Source: Gammaproteobacteria bacterium
GTDB lineage: Bacteria; Pseudomonadota; Gammaproteobacteria; Competibacterales; Competibacteraceae
Reading direction: 5' to 3'
Length of the DNA: 64,000 bases
Assembly: GCA_020846135.1 (NCBI GenBank)
Contig: JADLEK010000034.1
Location: 1-64,000 of the forward strand
Part shown: piece by piece, positions 48,798 through 63,732 of the stretch
How the letters are laid out: each line of letters begins with the position of its first letter
Position numbering within the stretch: the stretch's first letter is position 1
Made by a program: the position numbers and the translations under genes
Notes under the pieces: model-generated
Database searches by the model: none
Seen by the model: only the letters and a program-made list of their open reading frames with translations
Told to the model about the DNA's origin: nothing

Positions 48798-49424
48798 GTG
48801 TTTGAGTTTGTGAAAGCGGGTGGCTGGGTGATGTTACCGATCATCGCCTGTTCGTTGGCGGCGGCAACCATCATCATCGAGCGCCTGCTGGCGTTGCGCC
48901 GGGCGCGGGTGTTGCCGGGTCAACTGGTGACGCTGCTGCGGCAATGGACTGAACGCGGCGTAGTTACTTCATCCGAGGTGGAAACGTTGCCACTGCACTC
49001 GCCGCTGGGCCGGATCGTGGCGACTGGCCTGGCCAACCGCCACCGGGGTCGGGCGATTCTCCGGGAGCGGGTCGAGGATGTCGGTCGCCATGTGGTTCAC
49101 CAACTGGAGCGATTCCTCAACACCTTGGGCACCATCGCCGCGATCAGCCCGTTGCTCGGCCTGCTCGGTACCGTGGCCGGCATGATTAAAATTTTCCAGA
49201 TCGTGTCAACCCAGGGCAACAGCAATTTCAGCCTGCTGTCGGTAGGCATCGCCGAGGCGCTGGTGACCACTGCCGCCGGCCTGACCGTCGCTATCCCCAG
49301 CCTGCTGTTTTACCGCTATTTCCATTCCCGGGTTGATGAACTGGTGGTGCGGATGGAGCAGGAAACCTTCGAACTGATTGATTTGCTCGATGCCGATTCG
49401 ACCAATCAGGAGCCGCTGCCGTGA
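48798..49424 (+). CDS. exbB: ExbB/TolQ-type proton-channel protein
   Basis: The 208-residue inner-membrane protein has three hydrophobic segments: GGWVMLPIIACSLAAATIII, the central AAISPLLGLLGTVAGMIKIF and AEALVTTAAGLTVAIPSLLF. The last two are the ExbB/TolQ signature. With ExbD it converts the proton gradient to force used by TonB or a similar rod. It starts with GTG 48798. It shares four bases with exbD (GTGA), and the order exbB-exbD-lpxK-ycaR-kdsB is common in gammaproteobacteria. No tonB gene lies close. Confidence 0.93.
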   Translation: MFEFVKAGGWVMLPIIACSLAAATIIIERLLALRRARVLPGQLVTLLRQWTERGVVTSSEVETLPLHSPLGRIVATGLANRHRGRAILRERVEDVGRHVVHQLERFLNTLGTIAAISPLLGLLGTVAGMIKIFQIVSTQGNSNFSLLSVGIAEALVTTAAGLTVAIPSLLFYRYFHSRVDELVVRMEQETFELIDLLDADSTNQEPLP

Positions 49425-49843
49425 ATCTGCGTCCTCGCCGTCGCGAAGAGCCGGAACTCAATCTGGTGCCGATGATTGATGTTGTGCTGGTGCTGCTGAT
49501 CTTCTTCATGATCGCCACCAGTCTGCGCCATGAAGCGCTGCTGGAAATCCGCCTGCCGGAAGCGTCAGGTCAGCCGATGCCTAGCGCCGTCGCCCGGCTG
49601 GAGCTGAGCATTACCGCCGACGGCCGCTATGCGGTCAACGGCCAACCCTTGGAAAACCATGATCCGGCAGCGCTGAAAGCCCAACTGCTGGCCGCAACGG
49701 GCGGGCGCATCCTGCCGCTGATCATCAGCGCTGATGGCCGAACCCCCCACCAGGCGGTAGCCACCGCGCTGAATGTCGCTGCGCAACTGGGCTTGCAACA
49801 ACTGAGTATTGCTACGATCACCGCCTCAGCGCCGGGACCCTGA
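49421..49843 (+). CDS. exbD: ExbD/TolR-type channel protein
   Basis: The 140-residue protein has a short cytosolic start, one membrane segment with the essential Asp (LNLVPMIDVVLVLLIFFMIA) and a periplasmic domain (DGRYAVNGQPL, TPHQAVATALNVAAQLGL). It pairs with ExbB. It starts with GTG overlapping the exbB stop and is followed four bases later by lpxK. Confidence 0.94.
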   Translation: MNLRPRRREEPELNLVPMIDVVLVLLIFFMIATSLRHEALLEIRLPEASGQPMPSAVARLELSITADGRYAVNGQPLENHDPAALKAQLLAATGGRILPLIISADGRTPHQAVATALNVAAQLGLQQLSIATITASAPGP

Positions 49844-56153: not shown

Positions 56154-56759
56154 ATGCAGGAAAACCACGCTGTTACTCAAGTCGCCATTGCCGATCTCAT
56201 CGCCCGCCGCTGGAGTCCGCGCGCCATTGATCCGGATCAGCCGGTCAGTCGCGAGCATCTGTTGGCCTTGCTGGAAGCGGCCCGCTGGGCACCGTCCTGT
56301 TTCGGCGATCAGCCGTGGCGCTATCTGGTCTGGGATCGGTTCCGCGATCCAGCGGGCTGGCAGCAGGCGTTTGAATGCCTCGCCGAGGGCAATCAGGCCT
56401 GGGTCAAAAACGCCCCGATCCTGGCGCTAGCGGTGGCTGCGCCGAATTTCGGCCACAACGGTCAGCCGAACCGTTGGGCGCAGTACGATACCGGGGCCGC
56501 CAGTGAGAATCTGTGTCTGCAAGCGATGGCGCTGGGGCTGGTCGCGCATCAGATGGGCGGCTTTGATCCGGAAGCGGCCAAGACTCGCTTTAACATCCCC
56601 GCCGATCATGCCGGGATGGCGATGATCGCGATTGGACATCCGGGTCCGGTCGAGCTGTTGCCGGCGGCGCTGGCCGAGAAGGAACTGGCTCCGCGCCGCC
56701 GCAAGCCGCTGGAGCAGTGGGCGTTTGAGGGCCATTGGGGCCAAAGCGTCCAAGGCTGA
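56154..56759 (+). CDS. Nitroreductase-family flavoprotein
   Basis: The 201-residue FMN protein has IARRWSPRAIDPDQPVSREH, the conserved EAARWAPSCFGDQPWRYLVW and a late DTGAASENLCLQAMALGLVA. It could reduce nitro, quinone or enone compounds. The ATG at 56154 comes shortly after CTGGAGAC. It lies 12 bases before the MotA-like gene, so it may be co-transcribed with that pair. Confidence 0.9.
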   Translation: MQENHAVTQVAIADLIARRWSPRAIDPDQPVSREHLLALLEAARWAPSCFGDQPWRYLVWDRFRDPAGWQQAFECLAEGNQAWVKNAPILALAVAAPNFGHNGQPNRWAQYDTGAASENLCLQAMALGLVAHQMGGFDPEAAKTRFNIPADHAGMAMIAIGHPGPVELLPAALAEKELAPRRRKPLEQWAFEGHWGQSVQG

Positions 56760-56771
56760 TCGGCGCATCCC

Positions 56772-57851
56772 ATGCCTTTAACCGTCTCCGAACGGCGCTC
56801 GCAGCGGGGTGCCGGGCGTTATCTCTTCAACTCCCTGCTGTTTCTGGCGGCGTTGACCGCGCTGGGCGCCTTTTTCCAGCAGCCGTTGACCGCCGCGTTT
56901 TTAACCAATCCCTATCTGAACGGGACCATCGCCGCCACGTTCCTGTTTGGGGTGGCTTATACCCTCACGGCGCTGACCGATGCGTTGCGCGATGTTCGGG
57001 CCGGCGACCGGGCCGCCGAGGTCGCGTTAAAAGCCCGTCGTCATGAAATCCCGCTCAAACAGGCCGATGAATTGCTGCTCGGCCCGCACTGGCGCGGAGT
57101 CGGCGATTTCATGCAGAAGATTCACCGGGTGATCAGCCACGGCGATGCGGCTGCCACCTTGCCTTATCTGCTCGATTCGCTGGCGACCCAGGGCGATGAC
57201 CGGCGGGCGCTGGTCCGCTATCTGACCGGGGCGCTGGTGCTGCTGGGGTTGATCGGCACTTTTTACGGCCTGTTGCTGACCATTGCCGGGGTGCGTGAGG
57301 TGATCAGCGGACTGGCTACTGACAAGGCCGCCGATACCATGACCCTGATCGCTCATTTCAAGGATCGGCTGGCCGCCCCGCTGGGCGGGATGGGGACCTC
57401 GTTTTCCGCTTCACTGTTCGGCCTGCTGGCGGCGCTGGCGCTGGGCTTTCTAGAGCTGCAACTGCTCCGCGCCCAGAACCATCATCACACCCAACTGGAG
57501 GCGCTGGTGGTCAGCGATCTGGCGCCCCTGTGGCAGCCGGTGGTTACGATCACCGCCCAGACCGAGACCATTTCACCCCGGCATCTGGCGGCGTTGTTGC
57601 AAGCAACCACTGACCGGCTGGAGCGGGTGGCGGCGACGACTGAATATCTAGCGAATCGCGGCGAGGGCATTACCCGGGTCGCGGAACAGGTGGCGAATCT
57701 GGGCCAGCAGATCGAGTCGTTGCGCGGGACCTTGCAGAACATCGAGAACGACCGCACCGCAGATTTGCGTCACGAACTGCGGGCCATTGCCCGCTTGTTG
57801 GCGCAGCAGTCCGGGCAAGCACTGGATGTCGATCATGCTCCGCCGCCGTGA
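56772..57851 (+). CDS. MotA/TolQ-like inner-membrane motor protein
   Basis: The 359-residue protein has two early membrane segments (LFNSLLFLAALTALGAFF and TIAATFLFGVAYTLTAL). A later MotA/TolQ/ExbB-type pair follows: LTGALVLLGLIGTFYGLLLT and LGGMGTSFSASLFGLLAALA. This is the proton-channel signature. The C-terminal tail is a long coiled coil (RHLAALLQATTDRLERVAAT, QVANLGQQIESLRGTLQNIE), which MotA and ExbB lack. Its partner at 57835 has a MotB-like plug and peptidoglycan-binding domain. No flagellar or Tol gene is close. It is probably the pentameric half of an ion-driven motor of unknown use. Confidence 0.88.
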   Translation: MPLTVSERRSQRGAGRYLFNSLLFLAALTALGAFFQQPLTAAFLTNPYLNGTIAATFLFGVAYTLTALTDALRDVRAGDRAAEVALKARRHEIPLKQADELLLGPHWRGVGDFMQKIHRVISHGDAAATLPYLLDSLATQGDDRRALVRYLTGALVLLGLIGTFYGLLLTIAGVREVISGLATDKAADTMTLIAHFKDRLAAPLGGMGTSFSASLFGLLAALALGFLELQLLRAQNHHHTQLEALVVSDLAPLWQPVVTITAQTETISPRHLAALLQATTDRLERVAATTEYLANRGEGITRVAEQVANLGQQIESLRGTLQNIENDRTADLRHELRAIARLLAQQSGQALDVDHAPPP

Positions 57852-58833
57852 GTCGCTCAGTGAAGTCAATCTCTGGCCGGCGTTCACCGACGCCCTGAGC
57901 GGGCTGGTGATGGTGTTGATCTTTCTAATCACGGTATTCGTGATCACCGAGGTGCTGATTGGCCGCGAGATCATGGGCAAGGACACCGCGATTGGTCAGT
58001 TGCAGCGGATCGTCGAGCATCTGGAAGGGCTGGCCGGCGATGCCGAGAAAGAGGCGGCGCGGTTGCGCGGGCGGGCGCAAAATCTGGAAAGCACGGTCAG
58101 CGAACGGGATCAGTTACTGGCCCAATTGCGGAATCAACTGGCCGGGCTAAGCGCCGACAAGAGCAAGGCCGAGCAGAGTTTGGGCAGTGTCCAGGAGCAG
58201 GCGGCGTTGCTGAGTATCCGGGCTGAGCGGCTGGCAGCAGAGCTGGAGCGGCTCAATCGGGCGCTGGCGGCCAATCAGCAGGATTTGGCCCAGCGCGATG
58301 CGGTGATTATTGAGCAGAAGGGCCGGATCGAGGCGCTCGATAGTGCATTGAAGAAAAAGCTGCTAGAGCGGGTCGAGGAGCTGGAGAAATACGCCAGCGA
58401 TTTCTTTGGCCGGTTGCGGGAAGTGTTCGCCGACAATCCCGACATCAAGGTGGTCGGCGACCGCTTTGTGTTCCAGTCTGAAGTACTGTTTGCCTCCGGC
58501 GAGGCCACGCTGTCCCCATCCGGGCGCGGCGATCTGGACAAGTTCGCGGCGGTGTACCGGCAACTGGCGGCGCGGTTGCCAGCGGATTTGCCGGTCATTA
58601 TCGAGGTGCAGGGTCACACCGACCGGGTGCCGGTGCGCGGACGGTTTCCGTCCAATTGGGAACTGTCCACGGCGCGGGCGCAGGATGTGGTGAATTATCT
58701 GATTCAACAAGGCGTCCCGCCGGAACGACTGGCGCCAGTCGGGATGGGCGAATATCACCCGCTGGACCCGGGGGACAACCCGGAGTCGTATCGGCGTAAC
58801 CGCCGGATTGAGTTAAAAATCACCAGTCGCTAA
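57835..58833 (+). CDS. MotB/OmpA-like peptidoglycan-binding motor protein
   Basis: The 332-residue protein opens with a short cytosolic stretch and one membrane segment containing an Asp (PAFTDALSGLVMVLIFLITV), placed as in MotB. A long periplasmic coiled coil follows (about 45-195), and then an OmpA-like domain (VFQSEVLFASGEATLSPSGR, EVQGHTDRVPVRG and NRRIELKI). Such domains grip peptidoglycan. The coil is far longer than in MotB, so the motor may reach further through the periplasm. The gene overlaps the MotA-like gene by 17 bases, so the two are translated together. Confidence 0.9.
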   Translation: MLRRRESLSEVNLWPAFTDALSGLVMVLIFLITVFVITEVLIGREIMGKDTAIGQLQRIVEHLEGLAGDAEKEAARLRGRAQNLESTVSERDQLLAQLRNQLAGLSADKSKAEQSLGSVQEQAALLSIRAERLAAELERLNRALAANQQDLAQRDAVIIEQKGRIEALDSALKKKLLERVEELEKYASDFFGRLREVFADNPDIKVVGDRFVFQSEVLFASGEATLSPSGRGDLDKFAAVYRQLAARLPADLPVIIEVQGHTDRVPVRGRFPSNWELSTARAQDVVNYLIQQGVPPERLAPVGMGEYHPLDPGDNPESYRRNRRIELKITSR

Positions 58834-59502: not shown

Positions 59503-60354
59503 TCAATCCTTTTTACGCCGGCTCATAAACAGCAACCGTTCAAACAGATGCACATCCTGCTCATTTTTCAGCAATGCCCCGTACAGCGGCGGAATCGACT
59601 TGCGCTGGTCGCCGCGCAAGGCTTCGGGCGGGATGTCTTCGGCCACGAGCAGCTTGATCCAGTCCAAGAGTTCCGAAGTCGATGGGCGCTTTTTCAAGCC
59701 CGGCACCTCGCGAATCTCGAAAAACGCCTCGAGCGCCTCGCTCAGTAGCCGCTTCTTCAAATCCGGGTAATGCACCCGCACGATCTGCTCCATGGTTTCC
59801 TTGTCCGGGAAGCGGATGTAATGGAAGAAGCAGCGGCGCAGAAAGGCGTCCGGCAACTCCTTCTCATTATTACTGGTAATAATAATGATCGGGCGCTGGT
59901 TAGCCTTGATGACCTGCCGAGTTTCGTAGACGTAAAACTCCATCCGATCCAGTTCCAGCAGCAGATCATTGGGAAACTCAATGTCGGCCTTATCGATCTC
60001 GTCGATCAGCAGGACCGGTTGAGTCTCGCTGGCGAAGGCTTCCCACAGCTTGCCCCGGACGATGTAGTTGCTGATGTCATTCACGCGCGCCTCGCCCAGT
60101 TGCGAGTCGCGCAGTCGGGAAACAGCGTCGTATTCGTACAAACCCTGCTGCGCCTTGATCGTGGATTTGATGTGCCACTGAATCAAAGGCCGTTGCAGGG
60201 CGCAGGCGACTTCTTCGGCCAGTTGGGTCTTGCCGGTGCCTGGTTCGCCCTTGACCAGCAAGGGCCGACCCAAGGTCACAGCGGCGTTGACCGCCATCAT
60301 CAGATCGTCAGTGACGACGTAACGATCCGTCCCATGAAAACGTGACTCGGACAT
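59503..60354 (-). CDS. MoxR-family AAA+ ATPase
   Basis: The 283-residue protein has the MoxR Walker A (LLVKGEPGTGKTQLAEEVA), Walker B (PVLLIDEIDKADIEFPNDLL), sensor 1 (IIIITSNNEKELPDAFLRRC) and arginine finger region. MoxR ATPases help assemble or load metals into partner proteins and usually work with a vWA protein encoded next door. No such partner is adjacent here; the vWA protein at 35 kb belongs to another operon. It is convergent with rraA. Confidence 0.9.
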   Translation of the reverse strand: MSESRFHGTDRYVVTDDLMMAVNAAVTLGRPLLVKGEPGTGKTQLAEEVACALQRPLIQWHIKSTIKAQQGLYEYDAVSRLRDSQLGEARVNDISNYIVRGKLWEAFASETQPVLLIDEIDKADIEFPNDLLLELDRMEFYVYETRQVIKANQRPIIIITSNNEKELPDAFLRRCFFHYIRFPDKETMEQIVRVHYPDLKKRLLSEALEAFFEIREVPGLKKRPSTSELLDWIKLLVAEDIPPEALRGDQRKSIPPLYGALLKNEQDVHLFERLLFMSRRKKD

Positions 60355-62958: not shown

Positions 62959-63732
62959 ATGATCGAAACCTGGTTAAATTTTCCGCTTTGGCTGACCATC
63001 CCCATGACTCTGCTATTCTGGCTGGTCACTGCCGCAGGCGTGTGGGGCGTTTTCCAATACCCGCGACTGGTTCCCTTCTGGCAAAAATGTACGGGCATCG
63101 CGCCGCCCTATGTCTCAATTTTTGCGGCACTGTTTGGCCTGTCGGTGAGCTTCATGGGCGCTGATATCTGGCAACGGACCGAGCGGGCGCAAAAAGACGT
63201 TTTCCAGGAAGTCAGTCAATTGAATTATCTGTTACATCTCGCCGAAGCTATCGGACCGGCTGGACAAACCATGACTGTGCCGATCTGCGCTTATGCGAAG
63301 ACGGTCGTGCAGGAGGAATGGCCGGTAATGCTGCTCCACGGCGAAGCTTCGCCGGTTGCCCAAGCCGCCTTTTATCGACTGTTGTCGCTGCTGACGGCTC
63401 CGGAATTTACCGCGCAGGTCGATGCGACCGTGCGCCGGGAGATGTTGAATGCGGTCAATCAAAGTCGTGAGTATCGGATTGACCGGATCCAGCTCAGCAG
63501 CAATTACAGCCACTTCGGTAAATGGGTGATGGTGCTTTTCCTTGGGTTTATGACGCAAATCGCCATCGGCGTGGTGCATCTTGACAAGCCGCGCGCCCGC
63601 GCCGTGACGCTGTTCATTTTTACGATGGCGATGGCGGTTACGCTGATCCTGTTGGCCGGGCTGGATCAGCCCTTCGCATCGCCATTCGCCGTGAGCAATG
63701 ATCCTTTTGTCCAATTGGCGAGTTGTCATTAG
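62959..63732 (+). CDS. Membrane protein resembling DUF4239
   Basis: The 257-residue protein has two N-terminal membrane segments (PMTLLFWLVTAAGVWGVFQY and PPYVSIFAALFGLSVSFMGA), a cytosolic helical region, and two C-terminal segments (WVMVLFLGFMTQIAIGVVHL and LFIFTMAMAVTLILLAGLD). This recalls DUF4239, a bestrophin-like group of unknown role. The block from the N-terminal segments to REYRIDRIQLSSNYS matches the family pattern in spirit only. It is convergent with the partial gene at the right edge. Function is unknown. Confidence 0.72.
   Translation: MIETWLNFPLWLTIPMTLLFWLVTAAGVWGVFQYPRLVPFWQKCTGIAPPYVSIFAALFGLSVSFMGADIWQRTERAQKDVFQEVSQLNYLLHLAEAIGPAGQTMTVPICAYAKTVVQEEWPVMLLHGEASPVAQAAFYRLLSLLTAPEFTAQVDATVRREMLNAVNQSREYRIDRIQLSSNYSHFGKWVMVLFLGFMTQIAIGVVHLDKPRARAVTLFIFTMAMAVTLILLAGLDQPFASPFAVSNDPFVQLASCH

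Follow-up and report, generated by a model that had tools for sequence, protein, structure and literature searches.

A MotA/MotB-like gene pair of Competibacteraceae from a conserved, under-described branch of the ion-motor superfamily

Few ion-driven 5:2 motors are known, and each characterized class moves a different load. In flagellar MotAB and in Zorya, the established mechanism is an ion flow that rotates a pentamer of A subunits around B subunits held by the cell wall. Flagellar MotA is under 300 aa long, and in sodium-driven PomA, TM3 and TM4 each contain polar residues. In type III Zorya, a ZorA of 555-701 aa with a GxxGTxxG polar motif and a long cytoplasmic tail is paired with an OmpA-bearing ZorB of 204-225 aa. 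Zorya defense requires the ZorA tail (PMC11890865). A recent survey described non-flagellar B subunits as lacking an OmpA-like domain (PMC12505986).

We analyzed a candidate motor pair in a 64,000-nucleotide stretch of Competibacteraceae DNA (contig JADLEK010000034.1, hereafter the window). The first-pass annotation of this DNA had called two motor genes that overlap by 17 bases and begin 12 bases downstream of a nitroreductase gene, and all of this is as it described: the A and B genes lie on the forward strand, and the nitroreductase gene ends at 56759, 12 bp before A. The features of the pair are as follows:

56772-57851, + strand: A subunit gene, 359 aa, with a MotA/TolQ/ZorA fold, four TM helices and then a cytoplasmic helical tail
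Residues 159-168 of A: GLIGTFYGLL motif, family form GxxGTFxGLL
Residues 211-218 of A: FSASLFGL motif, family form FSxSLFGL
57501-57848, + strand: cytoplasmic tail of A, residues 244-359, predicted to be helical with modest confidence
57835-57851, + strand: A/B gene overlap of 17 bp, of the same length in five of the named Competibacteraceae loci
57835-58833, + strand: B subunit gene, MotB-like, 332 aa, ATG at 57835, NCBIfam PRK09039.1-2
57889-57891, + strand: codon of Asp19, the membrane Asp of the WPxFxD motif (PAFTDALSGL) and the predicted ion carrier
57961-58425, + strand: periplasmic coil of B, a predicted helix spanning residues about 43-197 and briefly interrupted at 108-115
58378-58419, + strand: pre-OmpA signature E-L-x2-Y-x-S-x-FFGRLR, residues 182-195, with hardly any variation across the family
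58486-58803, + strand: OmpA-type peptidoglycan-binding domain of B, residues 218-323 (Pfam PF00691, E 5.8e-21)

A longer reading of B from a TTG at 57787 was rejected, as homologs begin near the ATG. When compared with same-genus relatives, dN/dS is 0.08-0.10 for A and 0.04-0.06 for B, which argues for a real gene pair under strong purifying selection. The nearest named loci, among them L079 with a B that is 95% identical, come from Candidatus Competibacteraceae MAGs, which places the window in this gammaproteobacterial family.

The pair resembles each of the described motors in part. Like type III Zorya, it has the polar motif in A and an OmpA domain in B, but the layout is inverted: across this family A measures 243-411 aa, while B measures about 320-911 aa, carries the coil in the periplasm and comes with no effector genes. 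It shares four TM helices, a membrane Asp and an OmpA wall-binding domain with flagellar MotAB/PomAB, but belongs to another clade, occurs independently of flagella and has a long coil from the membrane to the OmpA domain. TolQR/ExbBD provide the best fold match for A and have the GLxGTxxGI motif in common with it; however, TolR and ExbD have neither an OmpA domain nor a long coil, while B has both, and A again falls in another clade. With its OmpA domain, B does not fit the survey statement on non-flagellar B subunits (PMC12505986).

Pfam MotA_ExbB (PF01618) gives no match to A at E 0.001. An AlphaFold2 model (mean pLDDT 77; mostly 80-94 in the transmembrane core, 45-70 in the tail) nonetheless has, as a predicted structure, the MotA/ExbB fold of a MotA5B2-type ion motor. 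Ion-motor proteins occupy all of the top 25 rows of the structure comparison (VIA-align), led by ExbB/TolQ at Z 13.7 (5sv0_C, rmsd 3.3, 200 aligned), with ZorA at Z 11.6 and MotA (6ykm) at Z 11.1, values that are inflated for helical proteins. Four TM helices, this fold match and the retention of both motifs bear out the earlier call of MotA/TolQ channel segments. T163, P203 and S214 are invariant in 80/80 homologs, and the flanking glycines do not change across about 80 homologs. Polar residues are found in TM3 and TM4 alike, as in proton-driven TolQ; since TolQ and PomA have this pattern in common, the type of ion cannot be read from the residues of A. The coiled-coil tail that had also been proposed is present here as a predicted helical tail and measures 93-167 aa in most relatives, but the family has no strict need for it: it is missing in L189 (A of 243 aa, L189:8120-8851) and very short in L187 (A of 258 aa, L187:9982-10758), which comes from a 0.9-Mb genome. 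At least two lineages thus do without the full tail.

In B, the membrane Asp, the coil of about 150 residues and the OmpA-type domain were all recovered as called. Asp19 is invariant in 80/80 sequences having that column, and W14, P15 and the FFG-LR core of the pre-OmpA signature are likewise unchanged across about 80 homologs. Asp263 of an HTD motif and Arg281 occupy the canonical peptidoglycan-binding places, and the wall-binding residues D263, R281 and N322-R323-R324 are invariant in about 80 homologs. The invariant residues of A and B correspond to the ion path of MotAB and to the peptidoglycan-binding residues of OmpA proteins. The span between the Asp and FFGRL varies across the family from about 160 to about 750 aa. 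At L184:6531-9266, L183:5551-7899 and L186:6452-8791, B is about 780-910 aa long, and roughly 600-750 of its residues form a coil that, if fully extended, would far exceed the length needed to cross the periplasm.

We then asked how far the pair departs from named families. A tree of A (IQ-TREE; 48 sequences, 320 columns) included two MotA references and, for Zorya, ZorA2 and ZorA3, as no ZorA1 reference was found in 274 genomes. The A family forms one clade (support 98.9/100) that joins the Competibacteraceae and alphaproteobacterial forms and stands apart from MotA, TolQ/ExbB, ZorA2 and ZorA3, Zorya being the nearest clade with weak support (62.4/55). A tree of B, which included one wrong ORF and had poor deep support, is used here only for the ZorB3 clade and for lengths. 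B scores 308.2 bits over its full length (E 1.1e-91) against NCBIfam NF006543/PRK09039.1-2 ("peptidoglycan -binding protein"), above the curated cutoff of 305 bits. The novelty suggested earlier therefore stands in part: the pair belongs to none of the flagellar, TolQR/ExbBD or Zorya clades, but its B subunit already belongs to NF006543/PRK09039, which is found in most sampled alphaproteobacterial genomes. The branch is real, conserved and poorly studied; it is under-described rather than categorically new.

Of 284 good genomes sampled from the class to which G218 belongs, which we infer to be Alphaproteobacteria as the other large class of the same phylum, 190 have B, and several of these 190 are of 0.7-1.1 Mb. 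Its occurrence in Gammaproteobacteria is scattered. The B family is absent from Caulobacter, taken as a control, and the pair is thus not essential for alphaproteobacterial division. Phage records matched the OmpA domain only. In 79/79 testable named loci, and in the further loci read, the A gene immediately precedes B. Some genomes carry two B-family genes, as at L193 and L194 (both G746), L194 being the one B locus at which the profile search did not find an A. At L192:4017-5450, a 477-aa gene between an inositol monophosphatase gene and A has a weak match (E 2e-7) to the profile of B, which its coil alone may explain. The Competibacteraceae form has the same gene order as the alphaproteobacterial NF006543/PRK09039 pairs and a B above the cutoff, but is divergent from them (about 37-45% identity in B, about 30% in A) and has different neighbors. 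In Sinorhizobium meliloti, A carries the annotation "MotA/TolQ/ExbB proton channel family protein" and B the annotation "peptidoglycan -binding protein", and a search of the literature naming PRK09039 found no functional information.

Around the pair, the window encodes the nitroreductase, an RraA-like protein and an AAA_5 ATPase. In Competibacteraceae loci, the pair is preceded by nitroreductase or other genes and followed by RraA or DAHP synthase-like genes, and the nitroreductase gene adjoins the pair in only some relatives. In Rhizobiales, an inositol monophosphatase-family gene lies upstream and often an ABC transporter faces the pair downstream. The remaining loci show yet other neighbors. 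Neighbors were called with a codon-position caller, plain longest-ORF calls being misleading in the high-GC flanks. Across the loci examined, no third gene recurs with the pair, which agrees with the first-pass reading that partners are missing and indicates that a load gene is not linked. In 38 loci, from Rhizobiales and some Rhodospirillales, the pair is preceded by the inositol monophosphatase-family gene, often with efp further upstream; both were rejected as partners, being housekeeping genes that the Competibacteraceae loci do not have. Next to L086 and L042, a GTPase gene and other genes were seen a single time.

A further ion-motor pair in the window, an ordinary ExbB-ExbD at 48798-49843 (+ strand), lies less than 8 kb from A and B and is flanked by an acetyl-CoA carboxylase alpha-like gene on one side and lpxK/kdsB-like genes on the other. 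The AAA_5 protein is a MoxR-type AAA ATPase (59503-60354, - strand) that faces the RraA-like gene, with no von Willebrand partner directly beside it, and a bestrophin-like membrane protein is encoded at 62959-63732 (+ strand; PF14023, E 8e-36).

That the pair has no flagellar context is true locally, as motility genes, like defense genes, are found beside it in none of the loci examined, but other contigs of the same genome encode FliG and a further MotA_ExbB/MotB pair. Across genomes, the presence of the pair is independent of flagella: 11 genomes have both FliG and the pair, 10 the pair only, 11 FliG only and 12 neither (Fisher p = 1), and FliG_C is absent from 10/21 good genomes carrying the pair.

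As regards the novelty suggested earlier, probable homologs have already been overexpressed in Komagataeibacter hansenii, the sole experimental work on probable family members that we found (PMC6570709). In this bacterium without flagella, overexpression of motA (348 aa) or motB (321 aa) led to cells that were longer and chained, to wider colonies and to changes in cellulose, and GFP fusions of MotA and MotB were polar; the authors likened the elongated cells to TolQR overexpression and left the load unassigned (PMC6570709). These proteins probably belong to the PRK09039 branch, since their lengths, topology, gene order and annotation names fit a PRK09039 pair and not a flagellar MotA: the genes are adjacent in a flagellum-less alphaproteobacterium and encode a four-TM A and an OmpA-bearing B. 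The cellulose effects, however, are particular to that organism, and an overexpressed membrane channel can lengthen cells non-specifically.

Taken together, these data lead us to favor, with moderate confidence, the view that the pair represents a separate PRK09039 branch of the ion-motor superfamily, near-housekeeping in Alphaproteobacteria and found in addition in Competibacteraceae and certain other Gammaproteobacteria, which would form a peptidoglycan-anchored, ion-driven rotary motor of the MotA5B2 kind. Its most likely job would be the maintenance of the envelope or of cell division, perhaps with a polar location. By homology, five A subunits would surround two B helices in the inner membrane, with ions passing at Asp19 of B against the polar residues T163 and S214 of A. 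The B dimer would cross the periplasm as a long coil, its OmpA domains gripping peptidoglycan. B being held by the wall, the ring of A subunits with its cytoplasmic loop and tail would turn and act on a load whose gene lies at another place in the genome; alternatively, force may be transmitted along the long periplasmic coil rather than through the loop and tail of A.

This last possibility touches on a different explanation, a Tol/Ton-like energizer in which B or a partner passes force to the outer membrane and A turns no cytoplasmic load. ExbB and TolQ are the closest solved folds by Z, the periplasmic coil, which can put as many as about 750 aa between the membrane Asp and the OmpA domain, goes beyond the need to reach the wall, and the elongated K. 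hansenii cells recall TolQR overexpression according to their authors (PMC6570709). However, no TolA/TonB-like gene is linked to the pair, B bears a wall-binding domain where TolR and ExbD do not, A lies outside the TolQ/ExbB clade, and other ExbB/TolQ-type A subunits are already present in the same genome. We consider such an energizer possible but rather unlikely.

A Zorya-like anti-phage motor, in which an effector encoded at another locus would be alerted to infection by the tail of A, appears improbable. ZorA is the nearest, weakly supported clade, PADLOC profiles give partial matches of A to ZorA3 (E 2.7e-10) and of B to ZorB3 (9.6e-18), and the OmpA domain is common to ZorB and to B. 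Against this reading, A belongs to a well-supported clade of its own, and no Zorya effector (ZorC/D, ZorE or the type III set) was found beside the pair or recurring in the loci of relatives. The tail required by Zorya is missing or very short in the two lineages described above. The spread of the family is also broad and often syntenic within one class rather than patchy, and only 5 of 72,556 plasmids give a match, each a very large Sinorhizobium or Shinella replicon that is non-mobilizable. The broad retention within a single class, together with synteny and purifying selection, speaks more for upkeep than for defense.

Finally, an auxiliary flagellar stator drifted in sequence, like MotCD or PomAB, would account for the four TM helices, the OmpA-bearing B and the flagellum encoded elsewhere in this genome, but is very improbable given that A lies far outside the MotA branch, that nearly half of the good pair-bearing genomes are without FliG, and that no examined locus places a motility gene beside the pair.

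Returning to the wall-anchored motor that we favor, we tentatively suggest, as a bolder and less secure proposal, that this class could be a sister to Zorya in which the coil has moved from the cytoplasm to the periplasm, that it may power a basic process of the envelope or of polar growth across Alphaproteobacteria, and that it may have been overlooked through its generic names. What load is moved by a motor that most members of a major bacterial class retain, including some with reduced genomes, is a directly testable question.
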